From NCBI GenBank assembly GCA_963691705.1, contig OY829541.1, forward strand, positions 12,146,564 through 12,210,563: DNA of 64,000 bases, given 5' to 3'. Under the pieces are notes generated by a model. That model saw only the letters and a program-made list of their open reading frames with translations. It had not been told where the DNA came from and ran no database searches. This document shows positions 2,226 to 22,945 of this stretch, in pieces (position 1 is the stretch's first letter; each line of letters starts with the position of its first letter). The translations under genes were made by a program, and so were the position numbers. This DNA comes from Viola odorata (lineage: Eukaryota > Streptophyta > Magnoliopsida > Malpighiales > Violaceae).

Positions 2226-2651
2226 ATGGCTGATTCAGATGATCAGGTCTCTGATGAGCGAGAATCTCATCCGACCCCCCCAACCACACCGGATTCTGAC
2301 AATCCTCCTTCGCCGCCGTGCCTGAAGAGGAGATTGCCTCGCCGCAAAGGTCAGAAAAGGTCGAAGAAGAGAGTAAATTCTAAGACCACTGACTGGTTTT
2401 CTTCCTTCTCTGCCCCTCCTACTTGTAAGGGCAAGGAATTGTGTCCTCCTGCTGACTAGTTTGAAGAGGAGATTCCTCCAGGCGATACCGTCATAAAGGC
2501 GACATCTTCCGCTACAAAGGGGGAATCCAACCTGTTAGTGCCGAGTCTGGAGCGAAAGGTTGGCAAGTCTCGTCCTTTTGTTGATGACGAGCTTCCGTCC
2601 TCGGATGGGGAATACTGCTACTGGTCCTCTTACTGGCCTGATGAAGACTGA
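2226..2651 (+). pseudogene. aORF-0 of TatA-1 (antisense small ORF, one internal stop)
   Basis: This is an extra gene on the strand opposite to TatA-1 gag-pol. Read in one frame from ATG 2226 to TGA 2649-2651 it has 141 codons with one in-frame TAG at 2457-2459. The N-terminal part is Pro/Ser/Asp-rich (PTPPTTPDSDNPPSPP), followed by a strongly basic Arg/Lys cluster, a Ser-rich middle, and an acidic aromatic end (DGEYCYWSSYWPDED). The TatA-2 copy (63542 down to 63123) is intact and shares the PTPPT.PDSDNP block, the basic cluster and the acidic Tyr/Trp tail. I recognise no domain. The basic cluster could be a nuclear signal or bind nucleic acid, which is inference. ATG 2226 aligns with the ATG of the intact copy. 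Confidence 0.6.
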
Positions 2652-3103
2652 TTCCACCCCTGGCAATCCGTCATAGATGCCGTATGGCTATTATTAAACG
2701 AAATGAAATGATGCTTCTGCTTTTTTAGTCTTTCATGCTCATGCGTTAGCTCCTCCTTTGATGGATAGCTATCGTCAAGAAATTAACCGTTGCTTCAATG
2801 TAACCGCTTTCAACTGATTGTCAGTAACTGCCCCCTCCAGAAGATATAAATGCTTAGACATAAATATCCTTCTGAGGTTTTTCACAGGCTGTTCAATTTT
2901 TGAACTTAGCCTTTAAAAGGGAGCAACTGCTTTCTTTTAATACTCTTTGCTTGCTCTTTGGAATTTTCTCCTTCTCTCTCTAAGTTTTGTTTCAAAGGAA
3001 GTTACGATCACCGTTCGTCGGTGCCGACGGTTTTGCTCACCTCCTTCTGCTCAAGGTACTTTACTTCTTCCTTAGATTTTCTTCTTGCTGATTCATTATG
3101 AGC
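2652..3103. promoter_or_regulatory. Spacer and probable promoter region of aORF-1 (TatA-1)
   Basis: The spacer between aORF-0 and aORF-1 has no ORF of note. A 'cctttaaaagggag' TATA-like site at about 2912-2925 lies about 185 bp upstream of ATG 3104, followed by a CT-rich stretch (2930-3000). The TatA-2 copy has 'cctttataagg' on the minus strand at about 62839-62849, about 190 bp before its ATG. Similar spacing in two diverged copies makes a real core promoter plausible. A further 'gatataaatg' near 2843 is a weaker alternative. Confidence 0.45.
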
Positions 3104-5216
3104 ATGTCTAGGATACCCAAGGACACTCAGTGGCCTCTGGCCACAAATAGGTCTTTGAAGGGTTTCTAGCGGCCCATAGATTTAGAAATTGAGAGAACAC
3201 CTAGTGTTTTCGTTGATGAAACGGTATTGGAGGCCGAGTTGGAGGAAAATGGTATCTTTTTCCCTCCTGGTTATTCCATCAAAATTACTGATACTGGTCA
3301 TCAGCTTCATGACCCTCTATCGGGGAGCGATAGGATGGTATATTTTAATATGTTCCTTTACGGTTTTCGCTTTCCCATTCGTGAAGCGGTGAAAGGATTA
3401 CTGCGTCATTACGAAATTAACCCGGCTCAGATTACGCCTTCCTCCTGGTGCGGGATTCATGCCTTCATTCGTTCTTGCGAGTTGCTGGGTATCTTTATCC
3501 CGTCTGTCGATTTATTTTGCAAGTTTTTTAGCTTCAAGTACCGCAATTGTGGGGTAGATATCACTCCAAGGTGGAATGACACGTTAGTGCAGTTGTTCTG
3601 GCAGAAATTCCAGGACTTTAAAGAGACTGTGGCTAATTGGAAGAGCGGTTTCTTCATTGTGAAACTGCCTTTCCACCCGTGGCCTAGGGGCTTCAATCGG
3701 TGTCTTATTGATTCCATTTGGGCAAACCCGTCAGTAATGTCCAAGGAAGAGCTTCGGCAAACGAACATGCTGCTAGAACTGAGTTCGTCCTTTCGCATTC
3801 TAGAGTTTGCCTTGTACAGGCTTATAGATGAGTGTACTATAAGTAAGTTTCTTTCCTCCCGTTATCACTTTGGCTTATTCATTGTTCTGATACACCTTGT
3901 CGACAGGTGATGCTGAAAATCAACCGTCGGGCGATAAGGACGTTCCTTTAAACGTGAAGTCGCTTCAATCACTGCCGCCTTCTCCTCCGCCTGAGAGTTC
4001 CAATCACCCTGCCGCTCCACCAAAGAGAAAAAGAATCAAGACAGTTGTCAGGAGCGATATTTCCGACCGGGCCTCTCGCTTCCTCGAGAGGTGGTTACCT
4101 ATTCAGAACAGAGGGGTGACTCCGAGCCGTCCCAAGACTGAAGTAACTAACAATGGTAGCGAGGATTTGGATACCGACTCTGGGCTTCGTCATGCTTCCG
4201 CAGCTCAGCGGAAGAAGCTAAGAATGGGAAATAGCAACCCAGTCACTGAGGCTGCTTTAAAGAAGGTTAACAGGACTCCTGCTGTTGGAGCTGACGCCCT
4301 TAGTGGTGCGAGTACCTCCAAAATGGCGACACTGGTTGAGGCGTCCACCAACGTTCCTCCTGACACTTCCGAGGTTCCGCCAGTGGTCAACCTTCCTTCT
4401 CCAACTGCCGCTCCCGACTCTCCTATTTCCTCTTTCATTCCTGATATCACTGCACCAAACCTTGAGTCTGCCTCTACCCCTACTCCTCTGCCGAATGGCA
4501 TTCTGCCATTATTCTGCACTTCTATTTCAGGAGTTGGTGGTTCCGCTAAAAATTGCTCTCCTCCCTTTACCGCCAATCTTTCCTCTCAAGTTCCTCAAGG
4601 AGCCACTTCTTATCGCCTGGATCTATTCACCTTTGGCACCAGCGGACTTCGCGCACTAGGAATATCAGATCCGCTATCGTGAAATGAGCCGGTAGGCTCT
4701 ATAGTAAGTGCAATATTTGGCTCTCCTGAAGATAGGGAGGAGATGTCAAAGCTTCCACTAGAGGTTCATCGCGAACGCGCTCTAAATGACGTGCTGGCTA
4801 GCTTCCGCATGCTGAATTACTTCCTTGATATCCATGGCGACAAGATTCGAGGTTCCCCTTCCAAGGTGGCGGAGTTGACGCAACTCCAGGGCGATACCCA
4901 GACAGAGCTGAACGATTGTCGTGCTGAATTGGCCAGAGAGACAATAGGGAAGGCAAAGATAGAGCTTTTGGAGGCGGAATTGGTGGCTGCTGATAGAAGA
5001 AACTCTCTCCTTCGTGAAGAGATATCAGCCCGTGACGCGAAGTTGGTGAAGGTACCCACTGAGATATCGCGGTGTAAAGACAAGGCAATACGAGCCTTTG
5101 CCGCCAGATTCCCAGACTATTACCGTAGCGGGGCTTTCGATCCTGTCAAGATAGCTGATTACGCCTTTGAGAAAATAAAGGAGGTAGATGGGGGCGATAA
5201 AGGAGCTCTTCCGTGA
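3104..5216 (+). pseudogene. aORF-1 of TatA-1: two-exon antisense gene, plant-transposon-like domain plus coiled coil
   Basis: Exon 1 is 3104-3842, intron 3843-3906 (GTAAGT...GACAG, 64 nt), exon 2 is 3907-5216. Splicing keeps the frame (phase 1: A|GT GAT). Exon 1 encodes about 246 residues resembling Pfam PF04195 ('putative gypsy type transposon'): the helical block PAQITPSSWCGIHAF, then VDITPRWND, then NWKSGFF. Exon 2 encodes a Pro/Ser-rich linker and a coiled coil (about 4860-5060, with ELNDCRAELA and LLEAELVAA), ending DYAFEKIKEVD. In-frame stops lie at 3167-3169 (TAG) and 4680-4682 (TGA). The TatA-2 copy has the same exon structure with different stops, so the ancestor was open. The start at 3104 (MSR) matches the MSR start of TatA-2; ATG 3098 is in frame too. 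Function unknown; no catalytic motif is visible. Confidence 0.7.
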
Positions 5217-5822
5217 TTAGCGTAAGGCAACGCTTGAGAGTGTCTTATTTTTCTTCAAACATTGTTTTTGTTTGGTTTGTAATAATTGATAATGCTTGTG
5301 TAATAACGATTGTCCTTTCACTCTGAATAACGATTAATTCACTTCTTAGTGTTATCCTGCCAGCTGATAACTTGGCCATCGCTGAGTCTCATCATCTCGA
5401 TTGTTACGTCATCATGCTTGTCTTCTTTTTGATAAAGCGATTCTGCTTTTCGGAGCATTTAATGCTCAGGATCCCCTCATTAATGTGAGTGAGGGATCAA
5501 GATGGTTCAGAGACACGTGTCCGTTCATCAGGATGCTAGGGCTAGCGTGATTTGATAGGATCAAAGCGTCTTCTCGCTTTTCTAGGGTTGTACTCATTGC
5601 TCACGCCTGTCACGCTCACAACGACTGTTCCAGCGATCGTTTCTCTTAGCCTCTTAGGGTTATAAAACCCAACACTTACTTCTTTTTCCCACTTTTGATA
5701 ATCTGCTTTCCCTGTATTTTCTCGAATCGTCTCGCATTTCCGCTTTTCAATTTCCTTCTTATAAAGGTACTTCTTTATTTCCCTTTGCTGTCCTCTTCAT
5801 CTTTTTGTTTTCTTTTTCCACC
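5217..5822. promoter_or_regulatory. Spacer with TATA box of aORF-2 (TatA-1)
   Basis: I see no ORF of note apart from a T-rich leader. 'agggttataaaaccc' at about 5657-5672 contains TATAAAA (5662-5668), about 155 bp before ATG 5823. TatA-2 has the matching 'agggttataaaaact' on the minus strand at about 59952-59966, about 170 bp before its ATG 59787. The leader after the TATA is pyrimidine-rich in both. Confidence 0.5.
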
Positions 5823-7205
5823 ATGGGTAAAAGTAAAACTCGTGCTTCTGGGTCTAAATCAGTCGATGAGGAGAAAATAGATAATACAGCCAGTACTATT
5901 ACTTCTCCGGCCATCCTTCATAAGCATTTAACTGATCATGGTGCCAACATCCCCGAGGGCTTCAAGGTTTCTATTGCCCTTGAGTCTCTACGCTTGAACA
6001 ACGTTCTGACCGGCAAACGTAGGATCTTGTATGCCCAGATGTTTCGCTACGATTTCTGATTTTCGGTCGACTCTTTTATCCAAGAGTTGCTTACTTCTCT
6101 TGATCTGAGCCCCGTTCAATTAGCTCCAAATGCCTACTGTGGCGTTTATGCATTTTTAGAACTCTGTAAGTACAAGGGAATTACCTCTCCTTCCCTTGCA
6201 TTACTCAAATCTTTATTTCAGATGTATAACCGTCGGGGTGTGATAGCGATATCACCCCATTATGATGATGATTCCCTTAAGAACTTCACCTGAAAACTCC
6301 TTCATTTAGAGTCTTCCATTGATGGGTGGAAAGAGCATTTTTTTGTCATCGAAACTCCCGAGCTTCCGGGCCCATGGTGGCGGTCTGGTTTCAACCAAGA
6401 TGTCAAGGACAGTGCTTGGCGCCGGGAGGCTCTTAATGAGACAGAGCAAAACTGTTTTGACAAGTTACTCAAACTGGAAATCAGCGTTCACACCCGCATT
6501 CTGGCCTGCGGGGCCGATATCCGAGCCTGCATTAAACATGAGTATCGCGTCATTTTTTTGATTTTTAGCATTGATACTAACGCTAACGTTGTCTTGTGCT
6601 TTTGCAGTGACTGATCCCAAGTACATTCCCTGATATCTCTTGCATTGCTCTTCAACGCCTTCCTGCATTTTCTTTAGTTTTTCATATCTGGTGAATGCTT
6701 TTCTTCATAGGACACTTCTGCCGCTTCCACCCATACGCTACCATCGGGCAATATGGATTTGAGGCATGTGCTGAGTCACCCAAGGAAAAGGCAGAGACCT
6801 CACGGAGAAGACACAAGCCTGTCGTCGAGTCAAGTTGATGTCGGGGAAAAGCATTAGACCGCTCTTGACTCTTCGCTACCTCCCCAGAACCAGGTCACTA
6901 ACATCTTCGGGAACATGGGAGCTCCTGGGCCTTTCGAGACTTCTCCACCGTCGTTTGGCTCGGAGGTTCCTCATTTTTCTTCTAACTTGGGCTATAATGA
7001 CGACTTATTAGGCTTCTCCTGCTATCAACCCCATGACCCTTTCGGGCTTCAGGGGGGTTCCTCTACCAACCAACCTCCCTCTCCCCCTACTGTGGTCTTT
7101 GTTCCTTCTGATGCTTCAGCGCTTAAGCGCTTCGGGGAGGGAGCGGTTGTGTCCAATCTCCTAGACGATGTGAGTTCGGTTAACGTTGTCGGGCCTGTTA
7201 CCCAT
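5823..7205 (+). pseudogene. aORF-2 of TatA-1, 5' part, split by OgreB
   Basis: A paralogue of aORF-1. ATG 5823 sits in a good plant context (CCACCATGG) and aligns with ATG 59787 of TatA-2. The first exon encodes a plant-transposon-like domain (LSPVQLAPNAYCGVYAF, then a helix, then IAISPHYDDDSLKNF and WKEHFFVI). In-frame TGAs lie at 6057-6059 and 6291-6293. The intron is 6538-6607, but its donor reads ATGAGT where TatA-2 has GTGAGT, so splicing is probably lost. After the intron come a TGA at 6631-6633 and a frameshift, then an open stretch 6915-7205 (Ser/Pro-rich, ending GPVTH). Reading jumps from 7205 to 11353 when OgreB and one copy of its CCCAT target are removed, giving ...VTH-QLDLATL in frame. 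Function unknown. Confidence 0.7.
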
Positions 7206-7891
7206 TGTTGATACCCGAATTTTGACGCCATTTTTATTTAATTTTAGCATTTCTGTTATTTAGTTAATTTACAGTCATTTTCAGTTGATTTAATGTCGCT
7301 AGCATTCTTAGGTGTTTCGTTGCATTTTAGCATCATTGTTAGCATCGTCAGCTTTCGAAGTCGCATTTTTAATTTTTTGTCAAGTATTTTCATTATTATT
7401 ATCATTATTATTTTTAGCCTTAAAAATCACATTTTTAATTATCCGGCAGTCGTTTCTTAAATTATTCTTCGTTTTAGGTCATCACACGAATTTTAGGATT
7501 TTTTTATATTTTCGCACATTTTTTAGTATTTTTATTTTTTATTATTATTTTTGTTCGAGCTTTTATTGGACCCGAGTAAGTTCGCTCGGACAATAGCTCG
7601 ACTTTAAAATGTTTTCCATCAACTAGTTGCTAGATTTTTTTCCGGTCGCAACGGTCTACAGCGTTTCGTGTAATTTTCGGTGTAACGCTTTATTTTTTTC
7701 GTTCCCGCATTTCGCGCCTTTGAACACTAAAATAAACGCGTTAAACGAGAAGTTCTCATCGTTCGCTGTAGACGGTTAAAACCGTTGTATTTTTTTCTAC
7801 GCGCCGGTACCTTCGGCTCGAAAAGTCGGAACGTTTGCTCGACGGATCCGGCTCGAGGCTATTTAAATCAGATGAAAGGCCATTTGATCAT

Positions 7892-7937
7892 GGCCATTGA
7901 TCTGGTCAACCAAGGAAAGTCAACCAGATCAATGGCC
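7892..7937. repeat. Perfect 15-bp inverted repeat upstream of the OgreB TATA box
   Basis: GGCCATTGATCTGGT (7892-7906) and its exact reverse complement (7923-7937) flank a 16-nt loop, about 200 bp upstream of the TATA box. It is conserved without change at 26920-26965. Confidence 0.85.
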
Positions 7938-8133
7938 CTTGATTTATTGTGCATAATGCACATGCACAGTGCAAGGAAATTCTCAGCCACGAGCCCGCGC
8001 CCGAGCCACCTACTCTCCTTCTCAGCCACGTCTTCGTCCGAGCCACTAGCCGTAGCTCCCTAGCTCCGCCATCATCACGCCTCCAGCTCCTCCACGCGCA
8101 ACTCCCTCCGCCACTCTCCCACGCGTCTTTCGG

Positions 8134-8142
8134 CTATAAATA
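8134..8142 (+). promoter_or_regulatory. TATA box of OgreB LTR
   Basis: CTATAAATA lies within a short palindrome (GGCTATAAATAGCC), about 930 bp into the LTR, after a GC-rich stretch. The same site is at 27162-27170 in the second LTR. It is the best candidate for the element's Pol II core promoter. Confidence 0.6.
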
Positions 8143-8563
8143 GCCGTCTGTTCCTTCGTCAAAAGGGTCCGAAATTTCACAAAAAAAAAGCTCTACTCCC
8201 TCTCCATTTTTCCTGGCCAATTCACATACACTTGGACCACATTCCGCACTCTCAATCCCACTCCTCGCCGACGTTCGCCGGAGCAGCACCACGGTGAGCA
8301 TTTCGCTCTCATTTTTTAAAATTTCGTTTAACACTTAGTTAATTAATTAAGCCTCAAAACTTGCTGCGAACACTCGGTTTTCAACTCAATTTCACCATAC
8401 TAACACTAGTTTAAATTATCGTGGCTTAGTTTAATTGTTTCGGTAATTAACGTGTATATGCATTGTTTCTTTTTCTTCAAAAAGCTTGCTGTTTTCGTGT
8501 TCTTTTTCTTGCTGTGATCGTGTGTTGGTGCTGCTGGGAGGGAGACCTTCCTTTCGGGTCAAG

Positions 8564-8740
8564 AACCAGGCGAATTGGTCGCCTGGTTTCGTGGCATGAG
8601 TCGCCGGCCACAACGCCGGTGACGTGGGAAGCAAGAACAGCCATGCTGTTCTTGCGAGGAAGAAGAAGATGGGAACGGGCCAAGCCCGTCCCTCTAGGAA
8701 ATTAAGGCACTGATGGGCCTTGGCTTAAGCCAAGCCCATC
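8564..8740. repeat. Cluster of short hairpins downstream of the OgreB TATA box
   Basis: Three strong inverted repeats follow each other: AACCAGGCGA/TCGCCTGGTT (8564-8588), an 11-bp stem with a 3-nt loop (8631-8655), and a 14-bp stem with one bulge around the centre TTAA (8712-8740). A weaker GTCGCCGG stem lies between them. They would fall in the transcribed R/U5 region. The second LTR keeps them, and one arm is even better paired there (CCGGCGAC). Confidence 0.75.
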
Positions 8741-9195
8741 TTGCCTTTAATTGTTGTCATGGGCTAGGATTCATTCCTAGCCCAATTTGATTTAAGTCAT
8801 GCATGCGGGCCCGGCCCAAATAATTTTCGTCAAGCATTCGAGTCATTTTTTTTACGTTATTTTATCTAATGCTCGTATGTAATGTTAATTTAATTCGTAT
8901 GCCATATTTAATTAATCATTATTTACTTGTTTAAATTTAAATACTTGTTTATTATTTCGCTTTGCTTAAATATTTATATACCATGATTAAATATTTATGC
9001 ACGAAATTAAATAGTCGTATACCATGCTTTAAATGCTTATACATGATTTAAATGCTCACATGCGTCATTTCCGTGTTCATATGTTTTCGTATGCTCGTTC
9101 TTGCGACAACTTGTTATTTAATTATTTTATATCCGAATTGCTTCTTTCTTATCGCAATATTTATTCTCACAATATTTAATTTCAGTTATTTAAAT

Positions 9196-10000
9196 TACCG
9201 CCTATATGGTCGGTCGCATTTTAATTCTCGTAAATATCAACTGTTTTAATTTTTCGCAAACTGCTGGAAATCCTTCCGCAAATTATCAACTGTTTACTTT
9301 TCCGCACTTTACTTTTCCGCACTTTAAATTTCAGCAATTTACTTTCAGCAATTTAAATTCAATACCGCCTACATGGTCGTTCGCACTTATCAACTGCTTA
9401 ATTTTCCGCACTTTAAATTCCAGCAATTTACTTTCAGCAATTTAAATTCAATACCGCCTACATGGTCGGTCGCATTTTAATTTTCGTAAACATTCAACTG
9501 CTTTAATTTTTCGCACACTGCTGGAAATCCTTCCGCAAATTATCAACTGTTTACTTTTCCGCACTTTACTTTTCCACACTTTAAATTCCAGCAATTTACT
9601 TTCAGCAATTTAAATTCAATACCGCCTACATGGTCGGTCGCATTTTAATTTTCGTAAACATTCAACTGCTTTAATTTTTCGCACACTGCTGGAAATCCTT
9701 CCGTAAATTATCAACTGTTTACTTTTCCGCACTTTACTTTTCCGCACTTTAAATTTCAGCAATTTACTTTCAGCAATTTAAATTCAATACCGCCTACATG
9801 GTCGGTCGCAATATCAACTGTTTATTTTCTGCAATATCAACTGCTTTAATTTTTCGCAAAACTGCTGGAAATCCTTCCGCAAATTATCAACTGTTTACTT
9901 TTCCGCACTTTACTTTCCCGCACTTTAAATTTCAGCAATTTACTTTCAGCAATTTAAATTCAATACCGCCTACATGGTCGGTCGCAATATCAACTGTTTA
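9196..10000. repeat. ~168-bp tandem array in OgreB LTR
   Basis: Units begin with 'taccgcctacatggtcggtcgc' or close variants at 9196, 9363, 9452, 9620, 9788 and 9963; the spacing is 167, 89, 168, 168 and 175 bp, so one unit is a half unit. Each contains runs such as 'ttactttcagcaatttaaat'. The whole array is missing from the second LTR (26235-29116). Confidence 0.85.
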
Positions 10001-10104
10001 TTTTCCTCAAATATCCAACTGTTTATTCCCTGCATTATCAACCTGTTTTATTTTCTGCAAATCATTAAACTTTTCTTCTTCCCTGTAAATCGCCAATAGC
10101 ATTT

Positions 10105-10500
10105 AATTTTTCTGCACTTATCAAAACAGCATTTCATTTTCGTATGCGTAAAATCCATCATTTTTCGCATGCAATCAACCCAACATTTAAATTCTCGTAT
10201 GCGTAAAATCAATCATTTTTCGCATGCAATCAACCTAGCATTTAAATTCTCGTATGCGTAAAATCCATCATTTTTCGCATGCAATCAGCCCAGCATTTAA
10301 ATTCTCGTATGCGTAAAATCAATCATTTTTCGCATGCAATCAACACAACATTTAAATTCTCGTGTGCTTAAAATCAATCATTTTTCGCATGCAATCAACT
10401 CAGCATTTAAATCTCGTATGCGTAAAATCCATCATTTTTCGCATACAATCAACTGTCATCATTTTATCAAACTCAGCATCTCACTTTCGTATGCGTAGAA
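10105..10500. repeat. ~54-bp tandem array in OgreB LTR
   Basis: Six to seven copies of the unit with core 'gcatttaaattctcgtatgc' and 'aatcatttttcgcatgcaat'. The second LTR (27830-28290) has one more unit, which fits the 54-bp length difference left after the large deletion is subtracted. Confidence 0.85.
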
Positions 10501-11347
10501 TCCATCATTTTACGTGTGCAATCGACTGTCATTTAAATTTTCGCACTCATAGAATTGCCTAGTTATTTCTCAAGCCGTCACTAACACTCTCGTTTTGTAG
10601 GTTAATTTCAAGCTTCGCTCGAAAGTACGCCTCACAAGTCCCTTTTATTTATTCGATGCTTTTCGCAAATATCAACTGCATGCATGATATATAGAACTGC
10701 TAGAATTAAAATCAACCCACATGAACAACGTGTTTAAAGAGTTGCTTAAAATGCCATGTTCATATGATTTTAAATTCTCGCTTGTATTGACTGCATGTAC
10801 ATGGGGACTTTCGATCCCACTTCAGTTTTTCACTTTAAAATCAATCATTTAAATTGGTACTCTGTTAGCCATCCATGTTAGGATCACGTAGTAACTAAGT
10901 TAATCATGCATGGCCCGATGATGAAAAAAAGAGGGCGCTCATTCAGTCTTACGGAAAATTCAGTCCCATCACGATCATAATAAAGACTAAAGTGACGATT
11001 CCTCTGAGGGCCCCCTTTTTCAAAACGCATTTCTCAAACACCTGTTTAAACACCTCTCTCATCAACCGGTAACCGTTTTCGGATGTGTCTCGGGTGCCTA
11101 ACACCTTCCCGAGACCATAATACGACCCCGAACCTTTGTCTGGGGTCCAGACCCCCTTTTTTGTGCCTTTAGTTTTTTACTTATTATATTTCCTATGCCA
11201 TGACAATTAGGGTTCCCTAGGCCTAGCAACCAAATTAGGGTGGCGACTTCATTGCATGCTGCGAGGCGTCCTTTTACGCCGAGCATCTGAAGGTCTCAAA
11301 TTTCGTTGCACACTCGCGAATTTTTTTTAAATTTCCGAGGCGCGATA

Positions 11348-12042
11348 CCCATCAGCTGGACTTGGCTACGCTGCGTAGCTCAGGAATTGCGGCCATCGGG
11401 GGCGATAACTCTGCTATCACTGCTTCATTCTTAGCCATTCATATGCTAACATCTTCCGAAGAACAAAACACTTTTGCTGCTGAGGGAGATAGAGAGCAAG
11501 TTGACTTACTGCGTTCTAATCTCTTTACCGGTCTCCTTCGGTTTCATCATTATACAGAGCGCATGTTGCAAAAGACGGCTGCCCTTGCCGCTTCCACGGA
11601 CAAACTTCCACAGAAGCAGTAAGAGAAGCAAAGGTTGCTGAGAGAGGGACAAGAGTGCATAAGGGCAATGGAAGTGGCCAAAGACGAGGCGAGAGAGGCG
11701 AGGCAACAGCTGGCCGATTCTACTACCGCTCTGTCAGCTGAACAGTTAAAGAGTATCACTCTTGAGGGAGAGAAAGTAGCTCTGGCGAGAGAGAGGGCCG
11801 CCTTGGAAGGAGAGAAGGCGGCACTTGAGAGAGAGACGGTAGTCAAATATCAGTGGTATGTTGAAAGGATTGTTGCCATCATGGCTGACTGTTTCATGGA
11901 GGTTCATGGAGAAGAATTTTACAAAGGTGACACCATTTCTGACGCCTTTTTGTGGAATTCCACTGATCTTAATGATGAAGGCTTCCACATAGCTAGGTCA
12001 AAGGGCTACCCGGGGCGGGAGAGCTCGGGGAATCAGTCATAG
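11348..12042 (+). pseudogene. aORF-2 of TatA-1, 3' part (first copy)
   Basis: This continues the aORF-2 frame after the OgreB LTR. It encodes a helical stretch (HMLTSSEEQNTF), an in-frame TAA at 11620-11622, then a long Glu/Ala/Lys-rich coiled coil (about 11635-11850) and the C-terminal block MADCFMEVHGEEFYK, which matches LVDCFEEVHGVDAYK at the C-terminus of the TatA-2 copy. It stops at 12040-12042. An almost identical second copy lies at 29117-29811, with the same TAA, so that stop predates the duplication. Probable role: oligomerisation through the coiled coil; the function is unknown. Confidence 0.7.
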
Positions 12043-13306
12043 GCGGAGTATCGTCGCCATCTTTTTGTGAGGATTAAATGTCATCCCCTTTTTGTCCATC
12101 TTTTTTGTATACTTTTTGCGACCCTTTGTGGGTGCTTTTACAACAGCGCTTTTATGATATTGGGTTCCTTTCTCATTGATTTTCTTTTTTGTACTTCTTT
12201 TTCTTTAAATTTCACTTAACACGCCCATCGCGCCATTATCATTCTGATTATGTTGACAGGCTTTGCCAGGTTCATTTTAACCGCTGCTTGGCATTGTCAG
12301 AAATGATATTCCACATAAAAGGAGTATCTGAAGTATCTTTCTTTCCCACAATCAGAAGAGATAACGAGTAGGGTCTTTAGGCCCTATTCCTCGAATCATG
12401 TAGGAATCAGTGCGATTGGCCTCTCATCAATTTCGTTCACGGGTCGCACAACTCCGTTGTTATCTCGAGCATCGATATCTCTGTTAGTCAGAAATATCCT
12501 GTACACTCTCAATTAATATTTATTAGTAAGAGATACGCGATAACGGACACGGGTTACCCGTAGGAGCCATCCGCTGCCATTTTAGAGTACAGGTGTCTCT
12601 TGTTATCGCTTTCTCAACCAGCTCACTTCGCCAGGGATTCCGCATCTGGTTACTCACTGGGATTTCATGATTCTTCGTGTTTCCACGTTACCACGAACGG
12701 CCGGAAAGTGCCTCTTCTTGGTGAGCCGTCTGATCAGGACAGGCCGTCACAAGGTTAGGACTTTTCACTTTCGGGCGTTGTCCTCGCACCCTGGAATCGT
12801 GCCCTCACTTAATGAGCCATCTATATTTGCCCGGTCACAAGGATAGGATTTTCACTTCCAAGATGGAGTTACTATTTCCCTGGGGCGTGCCTTTCCTTAA
12901 CGAGTCGTCTCCACGAGAACGGTCGGTATAAGGATTGGAATTTTCACTCCCAGGGATACCGGGGCGTGCCTCATCTTAGTGGGCCGCCTATATTAGCGCG
13001 GTTTACCAAAAGGAAAGGACTTTTCACTCCCGGGGGTGTCGGGACGTGCCTCGTCTCATGGCCCACACGTGTCTACCACGAGGATAGGACTTTTCACTCC
13101 CAACACTAAATATCAGGTGTGCCAGGGCGTGTCCTCACTTAGTGAGCCGTCTGATCAAGACCGATCATCACAAGGATAAGACTTTTCACTCCTGGCGACC
13201 CCTTTTCATCATCTGCACACACACACAGCCGCAAAACACAAAGAAGCTCACTATTTGAGCGTTAGTATGGGTTAGGGTTGGCGTTAATAAAATGTGCAGA
13301 GATAAA
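12043..13306. other. Convergent spacer of TatA-1 with GGACTTTTCACTCCC repeats (first copy)
   Basis: This lies between the 3' ends of aORF-2 (plus) and pol (minus). From about 12700 to 13200 a loose repeat recurs every 80-110 bp with the core 'aggacttttcactcc' plus GTGCC and CGTCT blocks. The same repeats are at about 30500-30965 and, reversed, at about 57430-57860 in TatA-2 ('gtgaaaagtcctatccttgt'). No ORF of note. A (CA)n microsatellite sits near 13208. Confidence 0.65.
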
Positions 13307-15022
13307 TCAAAGTCTAGCTTGATATAATTTTAAACGAGCAATATTCCAAGAGTTAGGTAAGGGGGTACCGTCGAGTGTCTCCACATGATACGCTTCCCTC
13401 CCGATAATACGGGTAACGCGGTATGAACCTTCCCAGTTCGAGCTGAGCTTTTCCCGGCGTTGACCGGTTGCTCGCTTGTCTTTGAGTACTAGGTCGCCTG
13501 CTTTCAATAACCGTTCTTTGACGCGCCTATTGTGATAACATGTCATCTTTTGTTTGTAATGTAGCATTTTCAGAAGAGCTTCCTCTTATAGTTCTGGCAG
13601 CGCGTCAAGGTTAGCTCGTAACCTTTCCTCATTCAGCTCTTCTCTGAAATAGGCTACTCGTAGACTCATAGTACCGATTTCCACGGGTACGACGGCCTAA
13701 GTATCGAAAGCCAGTGCGAATGGTGTTTCTCCCGTACTGGTTTTCGTGGTCATGCGATATGCTCACATCACATACGGTAACTCGTCTGCCCACTTCTTTT
13801 TGGATCCTTCTAGGTTCTTTTTAACACCGTTAAGGATGCTCCGGTTCATCACCTCTGCCTGACCATTGGTTTGCGGATGAGCCACGGAAAAGAACCTTTG
13901 CTCGATTCCGAACTCTACGTATTGGTCTCTGAAGAATTGGCTAGTTAATTGCGTTCCGTTATCGCTGACTAGCACACGGGGTACGCCAAATCGCATGATA
14001 ATTTGATGTTTGAAGAAACGCCTGATTTTCTCTGGTGTGATGTTAGTAACCGCCTCAGCTTCCGCCCATTTGGTAAAGTAGTCTAACGCCACGACCACAA
14101 ACTTTAACTGTGACCTCGCCTTTGGGAACGGTCCTAGGATATCGATCCCCCATTTCGCAAAAGGACAAGGAGCAATGATGTCATAAATTTGTGTGGCGGG
14201 TTGTCGAGGAATCTTGGAAAATTCCTGACACTTTTGGCAAGTTCGCACGTAATTATGGCCTATAGAACCAGTAGAACCCCGATCTAAAGACCTGCATAGC
14301 CAGGGTGCAACCGGATGCGTGCATGCCGCAAATTCCTTCGTGGATTTCACGGATGGTATGAAGACCCTCTTGTTCCGTTATACACCTGGCAGCTGGGTGA
14401 GAGAAATATCTCCGCATCAGTTCCCCGTTAAAGTACGTGCACCGTGCCGCTTGTTTTAGTACTTTCTTTTTCTCAGCATTATCTGTCGGTAGCTCATCAT
14501 GTTTCAAGTATTTTATGACGGGAATTCTCCAGTCATTTTCACTTTCTTCCACGCAGAGCGTCGCCTGTTCTTCCATAAAGGAAGGTACGAGTATCTCTCG
14601 GTAGTACACCCCTTTAGGTTTGGACGCTTGCGGGTTTGCCGCGAGTTTGGCGAGGTTATCTGCTTCAGCATTATCTTCTTGAGGAATGTGCTCGAAGCTG
14701 ACTTGTATGCCGCTTTTCTTTATTTCTATCAACTCACGTTTTACTTTGGCAAGGTATTGCACCATGATGGGCTCCCTGGCTTGAGAGTGTCCCAAGACTT
14801 GGTCTATTATCAGCTTGGAGTCTCCATAGATTTTCAACCGCAGGTCTCCCAACCTCCCTGAATCATGTATGCCTTTTATGCAGAAGTTTTTCCCTATCCT
14901 GAGCCCAGCTAATAGCGCTTCGTATTTTGCGGCGTTGTTAGATAACGGCTGCAGGATTCGGATGGCATATCGCACATGGATGCCGTGAGGCCCACTCATG
15001 AAGATTCCAGCTCCGGTAAGCT
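13307..15022 (-). pseudogene. TatA-1 integrase and partial RNase H (first, truncated copy)
   Basis: On the minus strand this encodes the second RNase H (KIYGDSKLIIDQ, EADNLAKLA), the integrase zinc region (REIHEGICGMHASG ... TCQKCQEF), the catalytic core (WGIDILGPF, LVSDNGTQL, NGQAEVMNRS, giving D, D and E) and the C-terminal part (LLKAGDLVLKDKR ... WNIARLKLY). A small deletion and frameshift near 14265 sits between the His pair and the Cys pair, and a TAA lies near 13595; both are shared with the copy at 31076-32790. The homology stops abruptly at 15022, inside RNase H, where the OgreB internal region begins. It is therefore a duplicated fragment of TatA-1, not a separate gene. Confidence 0.85.
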
Positions 15023-15140
15023 GTATATCCTCACTTGTATTTACTTTTTCTGTGTTTTTCCCTTTTTCAGGTTCACAATAGCTCCTCGAAAGCAAGCTAC
15101 TCCGCACAGGCTCCCCCTAACTAGACTTCAAAAATGAAAA

Positions 15141-17429
15141 ATGACTGAACCGGCCAAGACCGATGAAGCACTAATGGCTAGAATCATGGAGTTAGAGGAG
15201 CAAGTTAGGATAACTACAGAAAGAGCCACCAGGGCCGAAAAGGAAATAGATGAAGCTGTCGCCGAAGTACCACCGGGTTTTGATCTCCCTTAAACAAAAG
15301 GACCTCACTCTTCGCTCACCGTCGCAGGACCTTCCGTACTCCCGCCACTTTCTGGTCCCCCGGGCCATTGGAGATGGGTTAGTCCCTTCACTGTACCCAA
15401 CGTTGCGAGTCCTCCAGTTAAGACAGGTGAAGAGATCTTCCCGTCGCTTCAGTACCTTTCAATCAACCCTGCTGTGGACCCCAGCAAGAGCCAGGCCCAC
15501 CCAGAGGACCTGTATCTCCCTCCTATTCCTCCGAGCACAGTTCCCGGACCTGTGGGAACTCAGCTCCTCACTTTCAACCCAGCACAACCTCAGTTCTCAT
15601 CAGAACCAATGCTGCCCTTCGGTTCTAACCCCATCGGGGCCGAGAAACCAAAAAGTGACAGACTGAATCTTCTCGAGGAGAGACTCAGAGCAATCGAAGG
15701 GGCCGATCCATTCGATCCCACAGGTCCCGCCGACATGTGCATGGTCCCCGGGATCGTCATACCTCCGAAGTACAAGATCCCGGACTTCGAAAAATATACT
15801 GGGGTAGAATGCCCGAAGACCCACCTCAGAGCATACTGTAACAAGATGGCAGAGATGATCCACAACGAACCGTTGTTGATCCATTTATTCCGAGAAAGCT
15901 TGACCAAACACGCCCTAACTTGGTATATGGGGTTGGACAAAGCCAGGATCAGGACGTGGAGAGACCTATCTGATGCCTTCTACCGACAATACAAATTCAA
16001 CATGGAGGTGGCTCCTGACCGCGCCGACCTGTAAAATCTGGAAAAGAAAATCGGCGAGTCCGTGAAGACCTATGCGCAAAGATGGAGAGAGTTGGCTTCG
16101 AGAATCTCTCCACCCTTAAGCGACAAGGAACTCTTGTCGATTTTCTTGCACACCTTCAAAGCTCCCTACTACACCTACCTGATCTCGAACCCCTCAAACA
16201 GCTTCTCCGACATGGTCCTAATTGCCGAAAGAGTCGAGCAAGGGATTAAGTCTGGGCGAATCACGCATCCAACACCAGAGTCTGTACCAAAGAAAGCATC
16301 AGTCGTGAAAAGGGACGTCGGATTTGTCACTCCCCAAGTTAATCAGGGGCAGCCGTTTCTGCCACCACCGCCTTATTTGGTACCACCGCCGTATCAGCCG
16401 GCATCACTATATCAACCCACCTCCTTTCCTTTTAATTCACCACCAATCGCTAATATCCTACCTCAAAATCCTACTAATTTCCCACCACCTCTAGTGCAAA
16501 CATCACAACCTATGCAACCCAAACCATATAACCCACCAAAAGACCCAAATAACCAAAACACGACCAACAATCGGTGGAACCGAGAGCCTCCACCTCCTCT
16601 CCCTCTCCCTGCAGGAGAAATCTACAAACATCTCCTGGCGGCCGGACAGATCGTACCGGTTCCGGCTCAGCCTCAATTGCCTCCTTACCCAAAGTGGTAT
16701 GATCACAACGCAAGATGCGAATATCACGCTGGAACCCCAGGTCACACTCTGGAAAATTGCTTCGCATTCAAGGCAAAGGTCCATCACTTGATCAAAAGTG
16801 GATGGGTATCTTTCGAAGGATTAGCAAAAGGACCCAACACATCCACCAACCCTCTTCCCAATCATTCCCAAGGAAAGGGAGGGGTGAATGCCATCTCGGC
16901 AGGAGAAAGCAACGACCATTTATCTTCCGCATCGAGTTGGCCACAAGAACAGCTTTTCCAGGCCTTAGCTCGAGAGGGATATGTGCTATACTCAGGGGGC
17001 AATCCGAGTCACTGCATGTACTGCAAGGGGAGCGACGGTCACAAGATCCGAAGCTGCAAGTCGTTCGCAGAAAAGGTGAGACAACTCTCGAGTCTCGGGG
17101 TAATACAAACCCAGAAAGTGACCCCTGGGGAAGGATCAATCAACACGATCGGAGATGGATTTCCTATCCCGCATAACGCCAATGGAACCCCGCTCCAAAT
17201 GGTCCAGAAGAAAAGATCGACTTCATCGTGCAAGCGGTTCTCCGCGTGCCGCGACGAAGGCGACCGCGAGATTAACACCTTGGGCCAACCTTCCGGGAAG
17301 TTCGATACCTCGTTAGGTATTCGGCACCACCTTCCTATTCTAGCACAGTGCCCTTACTACCTTCTTGGGAATCCTCAGGCTCCGAGTCATACCCTTCACC
17401 GACATGGTCGCTTCCTCCGTTTCCTTTGA
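15141..17429 (+). pseudogene. gag: OgreB gag, two in-frame stops
   Basis: Gag forms the virus-like particle and packages the element RNA. ATG 15141 starts MTEPAKTDEALMARIMELEE, a charged helical N-terminus. The same frame runs to 17429 with TAAs at 15291-15293 and 16032-16034. The capsid-like core (about 15640-16300) contains PADMCMVPGIVIPPKYK, LTWYMGLD and YAQRWRELASRI, a pattern I know from Ogre gag. A Pro-rich stretch follows, then two zinc-knuckle-like motifs: CEYHAGTPGHTLENC (about 16717-16761) and CMYCKGSDGHKIRSC (about 17014-17058). Just upstream, 'aatagctcctcgaaagcaag' resembles the tail of another reading frame. The last part of this frame (after about 17280) runs over the start of a second, shifted gag piece. 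Confidence 0.75.
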
Positions 17430-17920
17430 AAGAGATCTACGCAAGCCTTTTGGCAGGCGGGCAGATTACACCATCCCCACTCTCTCCTCAATCCCTTCCT
17501 TACCCTAGGTTGTATGATCCAAAGGATAGCTGCGAATATCACGCTGGAGCCCCAGGTCACACTCTAGAAAATTGCTTCGCATTCAAAGAAAAAGTTAATC
17601 GCTTGATCAAAAGTGGATGGGTCTCCTTCGAGGGCTTGGCGAAAGGACCTGACACGGCCATCGACCCTCTCCCAAACCACGCCTCAGGAGGTGAAGATAT
17701 GAATGCTATTTCGATGGAAACAGTTGGGAAGAAGACTCGTGAGTTGGAGATAATTGACACCGTCAAGGATGGTCATCCCACCACTTGTTCACGCAAATAT
17801 AGGTCTCAAGCTGGGCCAGTAACAAGTGAATTTGCTGATATTGGGGGCATGACATGGAAGGCAGAATGTATCCCCACATCAGAGCCACATTCTCCCTCGC
17901 AGTCGGAGTCGTCAATATAA
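17348..17920 (+). pseudogene. Second gag 3' segment of OgreB (duplicated finger region, other frame)
   Basis: A 190-codon open stretch in a different frame from the main gag. It repeats the region around the first finger: KEIYASLLAGGQI corresponds to GEIYKHLLAAGQI, CEYHAGAPGHTLENC to CEYHAGTPGHTLENC, then SGWVSFEGLAKGP and NPLPNH/DPLPNH. The similarity spans about 95 residues (16614-16900 against about 17424-17712). The two copies are clearly diverged, so the extra copy is old or came from a related element by recombination. After the repeat the frame runs on with no protease-like motif (no D-S/T-G) and ends at 17920. Start codon unclear; it may be read only as part of gag by frameshift or splicing, or not at all. 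Confidence 0.6.
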
Positions 17921-18324
17921 ATCCTACCATGGTCAGTATAGCTTCAGATTCCTGTATTGATGCTCCGGGAGAAGAAGAATCGTCGCCTGGTTCAGTCATT
18001 TTCGTTAAGAAGTCAGGGGAGTCTGTGGGCAACTGGACCATCACCATGCTTCCGGATGTCTCTCCGTAATTTCTCATTTTGAAAAATATATATATGTTTT
18101 TGGCACGTTTTCTTACGAAAACATTTTTGTAGGGACTCCTGTTCCCTTTTGTTAAAAATCAATATATATGCAAATTTTCATTTTACGCATCTCTTTTTTC
18201 GCGCTTTTAATTTCAGGATGAGTGTTAGTTCGGATTGTCTTGATAAAACCTATGTCTTTACTGGCGAAGAAATCATCGCTACGACCGAAGACAATGCCGA
18301 AATCTCCGACGAACTGACCGTTTA
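17921..18324 (+). other. Gap between gag and pol of OgreB, intron-like
   Basis: AT-rich sequence with runs such as 'atatatatatg' (18090) and a pyrimidine-rich end 'cgcttttaatttcag' before GATGAG (about 18205-18222), a good 3' splice site. Ogre elements are known for an intron in this place, between protease and RT. After the site, about 35 codons read DKTYVFTGEEIIATTED before the frame breaks near 18322. I find no retropepsin motif here. Confidence 0.5.
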
Positions 18325-18366
18325 CTAGAAAGTTCAGAAAAGGAAATAACCCCTCATCGGGAGGAA

Positions 18367-21300
18367 TTGGACGAAGTAAACTTGGGGGCAAGCAATGAGA
18401 GTCAAAAACTGGTCAAGATCGGAACTACCCTGGATACGACTCAGAGAGAAAGGTTGATTTCTCTCCTCAAGGACTACTCTGATGTATTCGCATGGTCATA
18501 CGCCGACATGCCAGGTCTTGATCCCGGGATAGTTGAGCATCGTATTCCATTAAAACCTGAGTTTAAGCCTGTCAAGCAAAAACTTCGGAGGATGCATCCA
18601 GACATCCTTCTGAAAATCAAAGAAGAAGTTACCAAACAACTAGACGCGGGTTTTTTGAAAGTTGCGGAGTACCCAGAATGGATCGCCAACATAGTGCCAG
18701 TGCCTAAGAAAGATGGGAAGGTTCGCATGTGCGTGGACTTTCGGGATCTCAATCGAGCTAGCCCTAAAGACGACTTCCCTCTTCCCCATATCGACATCTT
18801 GGTAGATAGTGCCGCCAGAAATGACATGTTCTCTTTCATGGACGGATTCTCGGGGTACAATCAGATCAAGATGGCACCCGAGGACAGTGAAAAGATGACC
18901 TTCATCACGCCCTGGGGAACCTTCTGCTACAAAGTGATGCCCTTCGGATTAAAGAACGCAGGAGCCACGTACCAACGTGCTGCTGTCACCCTTTTCCACG
19001 ACATGATGCATAAAGAATTGGAAATATATGTCGACGACATGATAGCCAAGTCTCGCGGCACGCAAGATCATGTGGACATCCTGAGGAAGGTGTTCGAACG
19101 GTTGAGGCAATTTCGGCTACGGCTAAACCCAGCTAAGTGTACCTTCGGAGTGACTTCCGGGAAGTTATTGGGATTCATCGTCAGCAACAAAGGTATAGAA
19201 GTGGATCCTGATAAGATAAAAGCCATTCAGGAGCTACCCGCTCCCAGCACCGAAACGGAAGTACGAAGCTTTTTAGGACGCATCAACTACATCGCTCGCT
19301 TTATCAGCCAGTTAACACTTACCTGTGAGCCGATGTTCAAGATGCTAAGGAAACACGGAAATGCAGAATGGGACGAAGACTGCCAAAAAGCCTTCGAGAA
19401 AATCAAGATATATCTGCAAAGCCCACCGGTACTAGTTCCCCCGACGCCAGGACGGCCCTTGCTCATGTACATGGCAGTCACGGCTAGCGCCATGGGTTGC
19501 GTTTTGGGACAGCACGACGAGTCTGGAAGGCGTGAACAAGCTATCTACTACCTCAGCAAAAAATTCAACGAGTGCGAAATGCGCTACTCTATGTTGGAAC
19601 GAACTTGTTGCGCCCTAGCATGGTGCGCCCGAAGGCTCCGGCAGTACATGTTGTATTACACGACTTGGCTAATCTCTCGCATGGACCCCTTGAAATACAT
19701 TTTTGAAAAGCCGTACCTGTCAAGTCGCATTTGTAGATGGCAAGTCTTATTAGCTGAGCACGAGATCATCTATGTGACTCAGAAAGCGGTTAAAGCAAGC
19801 GCCCTCGCCGATCATGCCTCGGACGAGTACGAGTCGTTGAGCTTCGACTTCCCCGATGAAGACATCATAATGATTGAAGATGAGATCACAGAAAATCTCC
19901 GAGAAGACGATTGGTGGACCATGTTCTTCGACGGTGCGGTGAACCTCTCGGGCAAGGGAGTGGGAGCCGTGGTCATAGCCCTAGATGGCCGTCAATTCCC
20001 CATAGCATGCAAATTGAACTTCCCATGCACCAATAACGTCGCCGAGTATGAGGCATGCATCAGTGGTCTGACAGCAGCCATCGACTTAAAAGTAAAGAAG
20101 CTCCGAATCTTCGGCGATTCAGCACTCGTCATCTATCAAGCCCAGGATCTATGGCAGACACGGGATTCCAAGCTCATCCCTTATCAAAGGCTACTCACCC
20201 ATCTCACACGGGAATTCGAGGAAATCGAATTAGACCGAGTCGACAGAGAAAAGAACCGCTTCGCAGATGCATTAGCCACGTTGGCCTCAATGTTTAAGTT
20301 AGAATGCGGAGTAATGCTCCAACCATTGAGAGTGGAAGTAAAGGAAACTCCGGCATGTTGTGTCGCCTTGGAAGAGGAACCTGACGGCAAGCCATGGTTC
20401 TACGACCTAGTACAGTTCATTAGAAACCGGGAGTACCCACCGGGGGCAAGCCGGGTTAGCAAAAAGACCCTCCAACGCTTAGCACTAGACTTCTACCTCG
20501 ACGGCGAGGTTCTATATAAAAGGACAGCTGATGGAGCTTTGCTTCGCTGCGTCACCATGACCGAGGCAAAGAGAATCATAGCAGAGATCCACGAAGGGGT
20601 TTGTTCCACACACGCAAGTGGACACATGATGGCCAGGCAGATAATGAGGCAAGGTTATTTTTGGCTCACCATCGAACGAGATTGCATCAGCTATTTTTGG
20701 AAGTGCCACAAATTTCAAATCTATGCGGACCATCTCCACGTCCCTCCAGCCCCTCTCTTCAGCATGACGTCGCCTTGGCCTTTTGCAATGTGGGGAATCG
20801 ACATCATCGGCCAAATTCATCCAACAGCCTCTAATGGCCATCGCTTCATCCTCGTAGCAATCGACTATTTCACCAAATGGGTAGAGGCCACCTCTTACTC
20901 CAACATCACTCAGAAAACCACCATGCGATTCATTGAGAGAAATATCATTTGCCGTCATGGGGTCCCAGAAACCATCATCACGGACAACGGCACCAATCTC
21001 AACGGAAAGATGATTGACGATCTTTGCCAACGTTGGAAGGTGAAGCACCGAAACTCGTCACCATATCGACCAAAGATGAATGGCGCAGTCGAAGCAGCAA
21101 ACAAGAACCTGAATAGGATCATCCAAAAGATGGTAATCACTCACAAAGACTGGCACGACATGCTTCCCTTCGCACTACATGCTTATCGGATAGCAACCCG
21201 TACGTCCACAGGGGCAACTCCCTACTCATTAGTTTACGGCATGGAAGTCGTAATTCCCCTCGAGGTAGAAATTCCTTCTCTCAGAATCCTGGCAGAATCT

Positions 21301-21642
21301 GAAGTAGAAGAATCTGATTGGGCGAGAGTGAGGTACGAGCAGCTGAACCTCCTTCCCGAAAAGTGCTTGGCCGCTATCTGCCATGCGCAATTATATCAGC
21401 AAAGAATGGTCAACGCTTATAACAAGAAAGTGCGACCTCGCAAATTCGAGGCTGGGAATTTAGTGCTAAAGAAAATTCTCCCTCATCAGGAGGCCAGCAA
21501 AGGAAAGTGGGCCCCAAGGTACGAGGGCCCGTACCTGGTCAAAAGTGCATTCTCAGGGGGTGCCCTAATGCTAACAAACATGGATGGAGACGATCTCCCG
21601 AAACTGGTAAATGCCGATGCAGTCAAGAGATACTTCGCCTGA
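18367..21642 (+). CDS. pol: OgreB pol: reverse transcriptase, dual RNase H, integrase
   Basis: An intact 1091-codon ORF; the open frame reaches back to about 18300 and the listed start is a non-ATG codon, since translation would begin in gag. Order: RT (about 65-300; MCVDFRDLN 121-129, MPFGLKNAG 191-199, YVDD 221-224), first RNase H (about 360-485, with its first Asp lost, as is common in Tat), second RNase H (D522, E560, D584, D634), integrase with H742/H749, C773 or C780, and catalytic D812, D873, E909 (35 residues between D873 and E909). The C-terminal domain includes FEAGNLVLKK and KWAPRYEGPYLV. One oddity: the usual Cys-x2-Cys of the integrase finger reads KCHKF (20704-20715), so the second Cys (residue 783) is Phe. 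Protease is not in this ORF. The element was probably recently active but would need protease in trans. Confidence 0.88.
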   Translation: MDEVNLGASNESQKLVKIGTTLDTTQRERLISLLKDYSDVFAWSYADMPGLDPGIVEHRIPLKPEFKPVKQKLRRMHPDILLKIKEEVTKQLDAGFLKVAEYPEWIANIVPVPKKDGKVRMCVDFRDLNRASPKDDFPLPHIDILVDSAARNDMFSFMDGFSGYNQIKMAPEDSEKMTFITPWGTFCYKVMPFGLKNAGATYQRAAVTLFHDMMHKELEIYVDDMIAKSRGTQDHVDILRKVFERLRQFRLRLNPAKCTFGVTSGKLLGFIVSNKGIEVDPDKIKAIQELPAPSTETEVRSFLGRINYIARFISQLTLTCEPMFKMLRKHGNAEWDEDCQKAFEKIKIYLQSPPVLVPPTPGRPLLMYMAVTASAMGCVLGQHDESGRREQAIYYLSKKFNECEMRYSMLERTCCALAWCARRLRQYMLYYTTWLISRMDPLKYIFEKPYLSSRICRWQVLLAEHEIIYVTQKAVKASALADHASDEYESLSFDFPDEDIIMIEDEITENLREDDWWTMFFDGAVNLSGKGVGAVVIALDGRQFPIACKLNFPCTNNVAEYEACISGLTAAIDLKVKKLRIFGDSALVIYQAQDLWQTRDSKLIPYQRLLTHLTREFEEIELDRVDREKNRFADALATLASMFKLECGVMLQPLRVEVKETPACCVALEEEPDGKPWFYDLVQFIRNREYPPGASRVSKKTLQRLALDFYLDGEVLYKRTADGALLRCVTMTEAKRIIAEIHEGVCSTHASGHMMARQIMRQGYFWLTIERDCISYFWKCHKFQIYADHLHVPPAPLFSMTSPWPFAMWGIDIIGQIHPTASNGHRFILVAIDYFTKWVEATSYSNITQKTTMRFIERNIICRHGVPETIITDNGTNLNGKMIDDLCQRWKVKHRNSSPYRPKMNGAVEAANKNLNRIIQKMVITHKDWHDMLPFALHAYRIATRTSTGATPYSLVYGMEVVIPLEVEIPSLRILAESEVEESDWARVRYEQLNLLPEKCLAAICHAQLYQQRMVNAYNKKVRPRKFEAGNLVLKKILPHQEASKGKWAPRYEGPYLVKSAFSGGALMLTNMDGDDLPKLVNADAVKRYFA

Positions 21643-22640: not shown

Positions 22641-22643
22641 TAG

Positions 22644-22945
22644 CGATCAAACGTCTAGCAATCAAAACATCTAGCAATCAAACATCCAGCAATCAAACAT
22701 CTGGCCATCAAACCATCTAGCAATCAAACATCTGGCCATCAAACCATCTACCAATCAAACATCTGACCATCAAACCATCTAGCAATCAAAGATCTGGCCA
22801 TCAAACCATCTAGCAATCAAACATCCAGCAATCAAACATCTGGCCATCAAACCATCTAGCAATCAAACATCTGGCCATCAAACCATCTAGCAATCAAACC
22901 TTCTAGCAATCAAACATCTAGCGATCAAACCATCCGGCAATCAAA
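22644..22945. repeat. ~33-bp tandem array in OgreB 3' UTR
   Basis: Alternating 'agcaatcaaacatctggcca' and 'tcaaaccatctagcaatcaa' blocks, about 17 bp per half unit and about 33 bp per unit, eight or nine times. Confidence 0.85.

Follow-up and report, generated by a model that had tools for sequence, protein, structure and literature searches.

A tandem pair of two-exon antisense TRP28 paralogues, probably old accessory genes, in Retand-type retrotransposons of Viola odorata

We analysed a stretch of 64,000 nucleotides from Viola odorata (contig OY829541.1, positions 12,146,564 to 12,210,563; the whole stretch is called the window below), which carries two diverged long terminal repeat (LTR) retrotransposons, TatA-1 on the minus strand and TatA-2 on the plus strand. 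Downstream of pol in each of these Tat/Retand-type Ty3/gypsy elements lie two genes of two exons each, aORF-1 and aORF-2, named for antisense open reading frames (ORFs) because they run antisense to gag-pol in both elements. On their sequences the two genes are paralogues, and we consider it probable that they are old accessory genes of a Retand-type (Tat-lineage) element, standing in tandem, antisense and spliced, with nuclear regulators as products and with a duplication inside the element as their most likely origin. The parts of the four genes in the window are the following.

3104..3842, plus strand: TatA-1 aORF-1 exon 1, PF04195 at 40.4 bits, in-frame stop at 3167-3169, further ATG at 3098
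3843..3906, plus strand: TatA-1 aORF-1 intron, 64 nt, phase 1, GT-AG
3907..5216, plus strand: TatA-1 aORF-1 exon 2, in-frame stop at 4680-4682
5823..6537, plus strand: TatA-1 aORF-2 exon 1, in-frame stops at 6057-6059 and 6291-6293
6538..6607, plus strand: place of the TatA-1 aORF-2 intron, 70 nt, phase 1, donor AT
6608..7205, plus strand: first part of TatA-1 aORF-2 exon 2, decayed and interrupted by a nested element, C
29119..29811, plus strand: last part of TatA-1 aORF-2 exon 2, in-frame stop at 29389-29391, second copy at 11350-12042
61946..62651, minus strand: TatA-2 aORF-1 exon 1, open, PF04195 at 38.4 bits
61880..61945, minus strand: TatA-2 aORF-1 intron, 66 nt, phase 1, GT-AG
60405..61879, minus strand: TatA-2 aORF-1 exon 2, in-frame stops at 60992-60990 and 60779-60777
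59076..59787, minus strand: TatA-2 aORF-2 exon 1, PF04195 at 35.1 bits, in-frame stop at 59235-59233
59006..59075, minus strand: TatA-2 aORF-2 intron, 70 nt, phase 1, GT-AG
58410..59005, minus strand: TatA-2 aORF-2 exon 2, falling short of most genomic copies in length, apparently through an internal deletion

All four genes are broken. The original prediction, made from the letters of the window, had placed both TatA-1 genes in 3104..7205, which is right for the whole of aORF-1 but covers aORF-2 only in part, because element C splits this gene at 7205/7206 and its distal part follows at 29119-29811. The prediction had also held that both genes begin with the same kind of domain, and the motifs that it quoted are all present in the translations. 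When the exon-1 products (T1a1, T1a2, T2a1 and T2a2, where T1 is TatA-1 and T2 is TatA-2) were aligned pairwise, with 500 shuffles for each pair, paralogues were 30-34% identical over 206-227 residues (T1a1/T1a2, 62/206; T2a1/T2a2, 75/227; T1a1/T2a2, 73/212; T1a2/T2a1, 65/211), and their scores of 291-315 compare with shuffle maxima of 49-53 (z of 53.7 to 63.4), so that this claim holds. Orthologues of TatA-1 and TatA-2, aligned over the whole length of exon 1, were 51% (aORF-1) and 63% (aORF-2) identical. Comparison of the aORF-1 and aORF-2 profiles with hhalign, a check proposed with the prediction, likewise gave a probability of 99.8 and E=3.8e-28 over 164 columns. Against PF04195 (Transposase_28) the three genes with the bit scores listed above pass the Pfam gathering cut-off of 26.2 bits, and the fourth, TatA-1 aORF-2, of which a stop leaves the piece 6060-6290, scores 24.3 bits, just below it; the TRP28-type exon-1 domain comprises ~235 amino acids and far exceeds the 69-position Pfam model. 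Homology over the full domain is combined with the same orientation, adjacency and a common intron place and phase, as in tandem paralogues. A convergent likeness of low-complexity or coiled-coil stretches could be sought in the exon-2 linkers, which contain much proline, serine and charged residues, but the homology sits in the exon-1 domain and withstands both profile and shuffle tests, and this explanation is refuted with hardly any residual doubt. Searches of a protein database found no relative of aORF-1 exon 1 (599 candidates) or of the 7-row alignment A1 (2674 candidates), and none was returned from collections of viral contigs and genome contigs.

The arrangement recurs in the host genome. 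A search of its 699 Mb with the PF04195 profile gave 150 scored matches, all above the cut-off, from among 11,413 first-look candidates, which are not confirmed copies. Around listed matches we took 30 loci, 20 that span ~10 kb and were drawn from across the list, and 10 of 4.35 kb covering the downstream side, and scanned them with separate aORF-1 and aORF-2 profiles. In 20 of the 30 loci aORF-1 is followed by aORF-2 on the same strand, with starts 2,822-2,911 nt apart, the aORF-2 match being incomplete in L022 and L033. Two loci (L019, L026) hold two aORF-1 genes, and four (L009, L011, L016, L027) belong to a subfamily, S, with one TRP28 gene, recognised by low, near-equal scores to both profiles. 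In six of the 20 pair loci (L023, L025, L028, L031, L032 and L036) both exon-1 stretches are open over at least 175 amino acids, a count that concerns exon 1 only.

As predicted, all four window genes have an intron of phase 1 and 64-70 nt, and its place in the alignment is the same; three of the introns have GT-AG borders, but the donor of TatA-1 aORF-2 is AT. The common place is not forced by the alignment, because the final 52 residues of exon 1 of TatA-2 aORF-2, taken alone, align without a gap over 49 residues onto the end of TatA-2 aORF-1 exon 1 (E=7e-6). Unspliced reading hits a stop inside or just past the intron in each of the four genes. The two aORF-2 introns have a TACTAA motif in common, which can be read as a branch point. 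For a wider count of donors we used 57 profile matches including the four window genes, 51 of which run through to the end of the exon-1 profile. GT stands at the phase-1 donor place of the alignment in 27/27 genes of type 1 (aORF-1), 19/20 of type 2 (aORF-2) and 4/4 of type S (50/51 together), the sole type 2 exception being TatA-1 aORF-2 of the window; a YAG acceptor follows 64-74 nt downstream of the donor in 49/51, with none there in L023 (type 2) and L033 (type 1). The donor is thus kept across types 1, 2 and S, and therefore the intron predates the split of the three types. Because the genes are antisense to the RNA that is reverse-transcribed, the genomic RNA would hold their introns as the reverse complement, unreadable by the spliceosome, which would explain how an intron survives retrotransposition and persists.

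Purifying selection on both aORF-1 and aORF-2 is supported by codon comparisons. Between TatA-1 and TatA-2 the maximum-likelihood (ML) estimate of omega (dN/dS) was 0.24 for aORF-1 exon 1, 0.40 for aORF-1 exon 2 and 0.20 for aORF-2 exon 1, each different from 1 at p of 1.6e-11 or less, and 0.29 (p=1e-3) for the last 70 codons of aORF-2; the pairwise omega of aORF-1 against aORF-2 in TatA-2 was saturated and left unused. For genomic copies, pN/pS was calculated from disjoint closest pairs of open copies, a choice which excludes stops and not missense changes, and came to 0.29 for aORF-1 (12 pairs, p=1.6e-54) and 0.39 for aORF-2 (4 pairs, p=5.5e-7), with 0.29 and 0.35 in a second pairing. The youngest bins were less constrained (pN/pS 0.37, 7 pairs; 0.51, 6 pairs), as expected if inserted copies drift. 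Hence the dN/dS check attached to the original prediction gave values well under 1 both between the elements and among further copies, and neither of the outcomes that it had named as contrary, a lack of profile similarity or dN/dS near 1, occurred. Its claim of selection for two different products is upheld for selection on both genes, but that the products differ is read from their divergence together with their constraint.

In the wrong frames of the window pN/pS was 0.84-1.52, save for the opposite-strand frame that shares wobble positions (0.42-0.55), and in genomic copies it was 0.78-1.11 in four of five, the wobble-sharing fifth giving 0.38 and 0.43. Stops number 11, 6, 10 and 6 when the four exon-1 stretches of the window are read in this wobble-sharing frame, compared with 1, 0, 2 and 1 in the antisense frame. 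A gag-pol-sense ORF on the opposite strand was considered as the selected product and rejected from frame-wise pN/pS and stop counts. The same figures bear on the view that the antisense transcript itself functions, as double-stranded RNA or through transcriptional interference, with incidental ORFs. Antisense transcripts acting as RNA are suggested in the available part of PMC7264820, but a pN/pS of 0.29-0.39 in the antisense frame against 0.78-1.11 in four of the five others, the 6 to 11 stops against 0 to 2 in the wobble-sharing fifth (0.38-0.43), and the constraint on exon 2 in a frame reachable only by splicing make this view very improbable. Somewhat less remote, although still improbable, is that only one aORF matters and the other is a decaying duplicate. 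The breakage of all four window genes would fit this, as would the four of 30 loci that hold aORF-1 without an aORF-2 exon-1 match (L010, L017, L020, L034), of which L010 also has no aORF-2 exon-2 match; however, L017 and L020 keep aORF-2 exon-2 matches and L034 is truncated, so that these three look like later deletions, and among genomic copies both genes are constrained and have kept their donors and TATA-like boxes.

These boxes, and a third antisense ORF found in both elements of the window on the upstream side of aORF-1, are located as follows.

2907..2923, plus strand: TATA-like box upstream of TatA-1 aORF-1
5653..5670, plus strand: TATA box of TatA-1 aORF-2, GTTATAAAA, also in TatA-2
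59950..59969, minus strand: TATA box upstream of TatA-2 aORF-2
62835..62852, minus strand: TATA-like box upstream of TatA-2 aORF-1
2226..2651, plus strand: TatA-1 aORF-0, the third antisense ORF, 141 codons with a single in-frame stop
63123..63542, minus strand: TatA-2 aORF-0, 139 amino acids, open

The box patterns were picked after viewing the alignment of the window. With at least 250 nt of upstream sequence required, 22/23 aORF-2 profile matches (one being a fragment) have GTTATAAAA 164-178 nt above them, and 21/23 aORF-1 matches have a CTTTATAAG-like box above them, whereas 1320 control windows, each of 330 nt and taken from these loci, contained the aORF-2 pattern five times and the aORF-1 pattern three times. 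The aORF-1 pattern was found in none of the four S genes. A ACACGTGTCC block is common to the aORF-2 upstream regions of TatA-1 and TatA-2. The third ORF, aORF-0, of ~140 amino acids, aligns between TatA-1 and TatA-2 with a score of 143 (maximum 71 in 1000 shuffles) and is present in 16/16 non-S loci among L009-L028 and in 0/4 S loci; ten shorter loci stop short of that place. Its pN/pS is 0.59 (0.47-0.74), and its pairwise omega (0.09 at t=8.1) was saturated and not used. The product has a proline-rich start, a basic middle and an acidic end with YCY.

Exon 2 shows a weak similarity between aORF-1 and aORF-2. Against distal TatA-1 aORF-2, exon 2 of TatA-2 aORF-1 scored 70 (shuffle maximum 58; 0/1000 as high) and that of TatA-1 aORF-1 scored 55 (3/1000 as high), while TatA-2 aORF-1 against TatA-2 aORF-2 scored 66 (7/1000 as high). 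At L016:4660-7247 an S-type gene is open in both exons and encodes an acidic tail at the C-terminus, and its exon 2 (an ORF of 610 amino acids) matches aORF-1 exon 2 at E=1.7e-9. The predicted coiled coil at the end of both genes went unconfirmed, since the heptad score, a simple test of our own, did not exceed 200 shuffles in any of the four exon-2 stretches. Basic clusters occur in three of these four. Together with the nuclear location reported for the antisense protein of Grande in the part of PMC7264820 at hand and the DNA-binding prediction published for TRP28 (PMC11963269, likewise in part), they suggest by analogy that the products would be nuclear regulators. Each aORF would have an antisense promoter of its own and a spliced transcript, the basic clusters of exon 2 would bring the protein into the nucleus, the TRP28 domain would contact nucleic acid or chromatin, and the two diverged copies may act separately or as partners on the expression or silencing of the element itself. 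Only tentatively would we go further, to a high-copy LTR-retrotransposon lineage with a set of three separately promoted antisense genes, the short ORF and the two spliced TRP28 paralogues, in which the TRP28 proteins partner in a dedicated regulatory or anti-silencing system and the introns are kept because the transposing RNA carries them in antisense.

The pair is older than the divergence of TatA-1 from TatA-2, as an approximately unbiased (AU) test gave p=1.3e-9 against both other topologies; concerted evolution within elements was rejected at the same value. In a tree of the 35 of 57 exon-1 matches that have an uninterrupted open stretch of at least 175 amino acids, 24/24 type 1 sequences form one clade (support 93) and 8/8 type 2 sequences another (support 100); three S sequences root the drawing and are not a proven outgroup. 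Mean identity is 32% between types 1 and 2 and 36% between S and either, and a test of a sister relation excluding single-copy relatives found the three types about equally distant and unrooted. Thus the predicted duplication inside one element, kept in two diverged ones, is supported in the age of the pair, but its origin within the element is unproven, with type S 36% identical to each. At L019:2165-6588 there is a 2.2-kb head-to-tail duplication with aORF-0/aORF-1 sequence (98.96%), and therefore tandem duplication of the aORF region does happen; at L026:3033-8081 two type-1 TRP28 genes of different subclades, 72-74% alike in DNA, stand in a row, and therefore mixing of elements happens too. 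The main rival for the origin is recombination by template switching between two diverged elements with one TRP28 gene each, which the near-equal distances, the three long stems without a proven root and the mixed arrangement of L026 would suit. The same order, orientation and spacing in 20/30 loci show one founding event without telling its kind, and L019 displays a recent true tandem duplication. We regard recombination as a possible, less favoured origin, and tandem duplication inside an ancestral element as likely, though not proven, and as our first choice.

Several observations weigh against the reading of the pair as old accessory genes with nuclear products that arose within the element. 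The aORFs are less constrained than gag (ML omega 0.085) and integrase (0.10). The predicted structure of aORF-1 exon 1, with a mean predicted local distance difference test score (pLDDT) of 45.1, lends no support to DNA binding. That types 1 and 2 are less alike than either is to S is unexpected from a simple late duplication unless both evolve fast. Ten of the 30 loci are without the ordered pair, and the survey list was built on the best PF04195 matches, which favours aORF-1 with its higher Pfam scores.

The surrounding elements were assigned from their pol domains and laid out as follows.

31355..36134, minus strand: TatA-1 gag-pol pieces, on the strand opposite to its aORFs
51644..57315, plus strand: TatA-2 gag-pol pieces
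7206..29116, plus strand: element C, a nested Tat-like element that includes a second TatA-1 sequence copy; CCCAT at 7201-7205, 11348-11352 and 29117-29121

The order in TatA-2 pol is reverse transcriptase (RT), RNase H, PF13456 and integrase, with RVT_1/RNase H at 54214-55347, PF13456 at 55687-56160 and rve at 56161-57315; in TatA-1, scanned without its RT, RNase H and PF13456 lie in 32298-33482 and rve in 31355-32146. PF13456 is here presumed to be the second RNase H-like domain (aRH), and its place between RNase H and integrase assigns both elements to the Tat lineage. The occurrence of aRH in Tat elements is described in the available portion of PMC6317226. An antisense PF04195 ORF between pol and the 3' LTR marks Retand, and here the aORFs agree in strand and in their position downstream of pol, the 3' LTR being unplaced in both elements. 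Element C has long LTRs at 7206-11347 and 26235-29116, the second without ~1.3 kb of tandem repeats, and CCCAT at its flanks. Between its first LTR and its gag lies the second copy of TatA-1 sequence (10120-15022 against 27888-32791, 98.3%, LTR part included), which is either a real rearrangement or the product of haplotypes merged in assembly. Dense tandem repeats of 32, 45 and 124 bp fill 24499-25851 close to the 3' end of C, and 1-1597 is apparently the 3' end of another C-family LTR, with 55-bp tandem repeats and 84-91% likeness to the C LTRs.

Antisense ORFs of Retand elements are widespread and without known function. A pair that has the same intron, separate and conserved TATA-like boxes, and constraint acting on both proteins argues strongly, at the sequence level, for real genes; it indicates that one element can keep two versions of an antisense gene, suggests how introns may persist in an element that transposes through RNA, and makes aORF function testable through splicing, partners and binding sites. 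Steinbauerova et al. (2011) reportedly surveyed the extra ORFs of plant Ty3/gypsy elements and distinguished two broad groups among those of Tat, which may or may not match aORF-1 and aORF-2. Published work on Retand treats antisense PF04195 (TRP28) ORFs between pol and the 3' LTR as a hallmark (Vicient 2025, PMC11963269, of which part was available), and like those ORFs the aORFs are antisense, carry PF04195 and lie downstream of pol; at the conserved positions G21, P25, L34, P46, N47 and F55, with the same spacing, TatA-2 aORF-2 agrees in 6/6, each aORF-1 in 5/6 and TatA-1 aORF-2 in 4/6. That survey lists 57 TRP28 ORFs of 600 bp or more, and by our own count of its table 56/63 clusters contain one (61 YES minus 5 marked a), therefore about one TRP28 ORF per element; unlike the genes described here, its available text mentions no paralogous pair, no intron in TRP28 genes and no per-gene promoters. 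Silene Retand-2 has two additional ORFs (ORF3, ORF4), as here, a likeness by description only, since paralogy or splicing is unstated in the parts of PMC11728184 and PMC3290532 at hand. Gene23 of Grande and the aORF of RIRE2 are, like our genes, antisense and downstream of pol, and for gene23 a promoter upstream and a nuclear product are reported, whereas the accessible text of PMC7264820 has one such gene in Grande and names no paralogue or intron. A literature search, judged mostly from titles and the starts of abstracts, brought up no antisense pair described as paralogous, spliced and separately promoted. The original prediction knew of no description of such a pair, which agrees with this; antisense TRP28 ORFs as such are already known from PMC11963269, and it is the maintained paralogous TRP28 pair that appears to be new.

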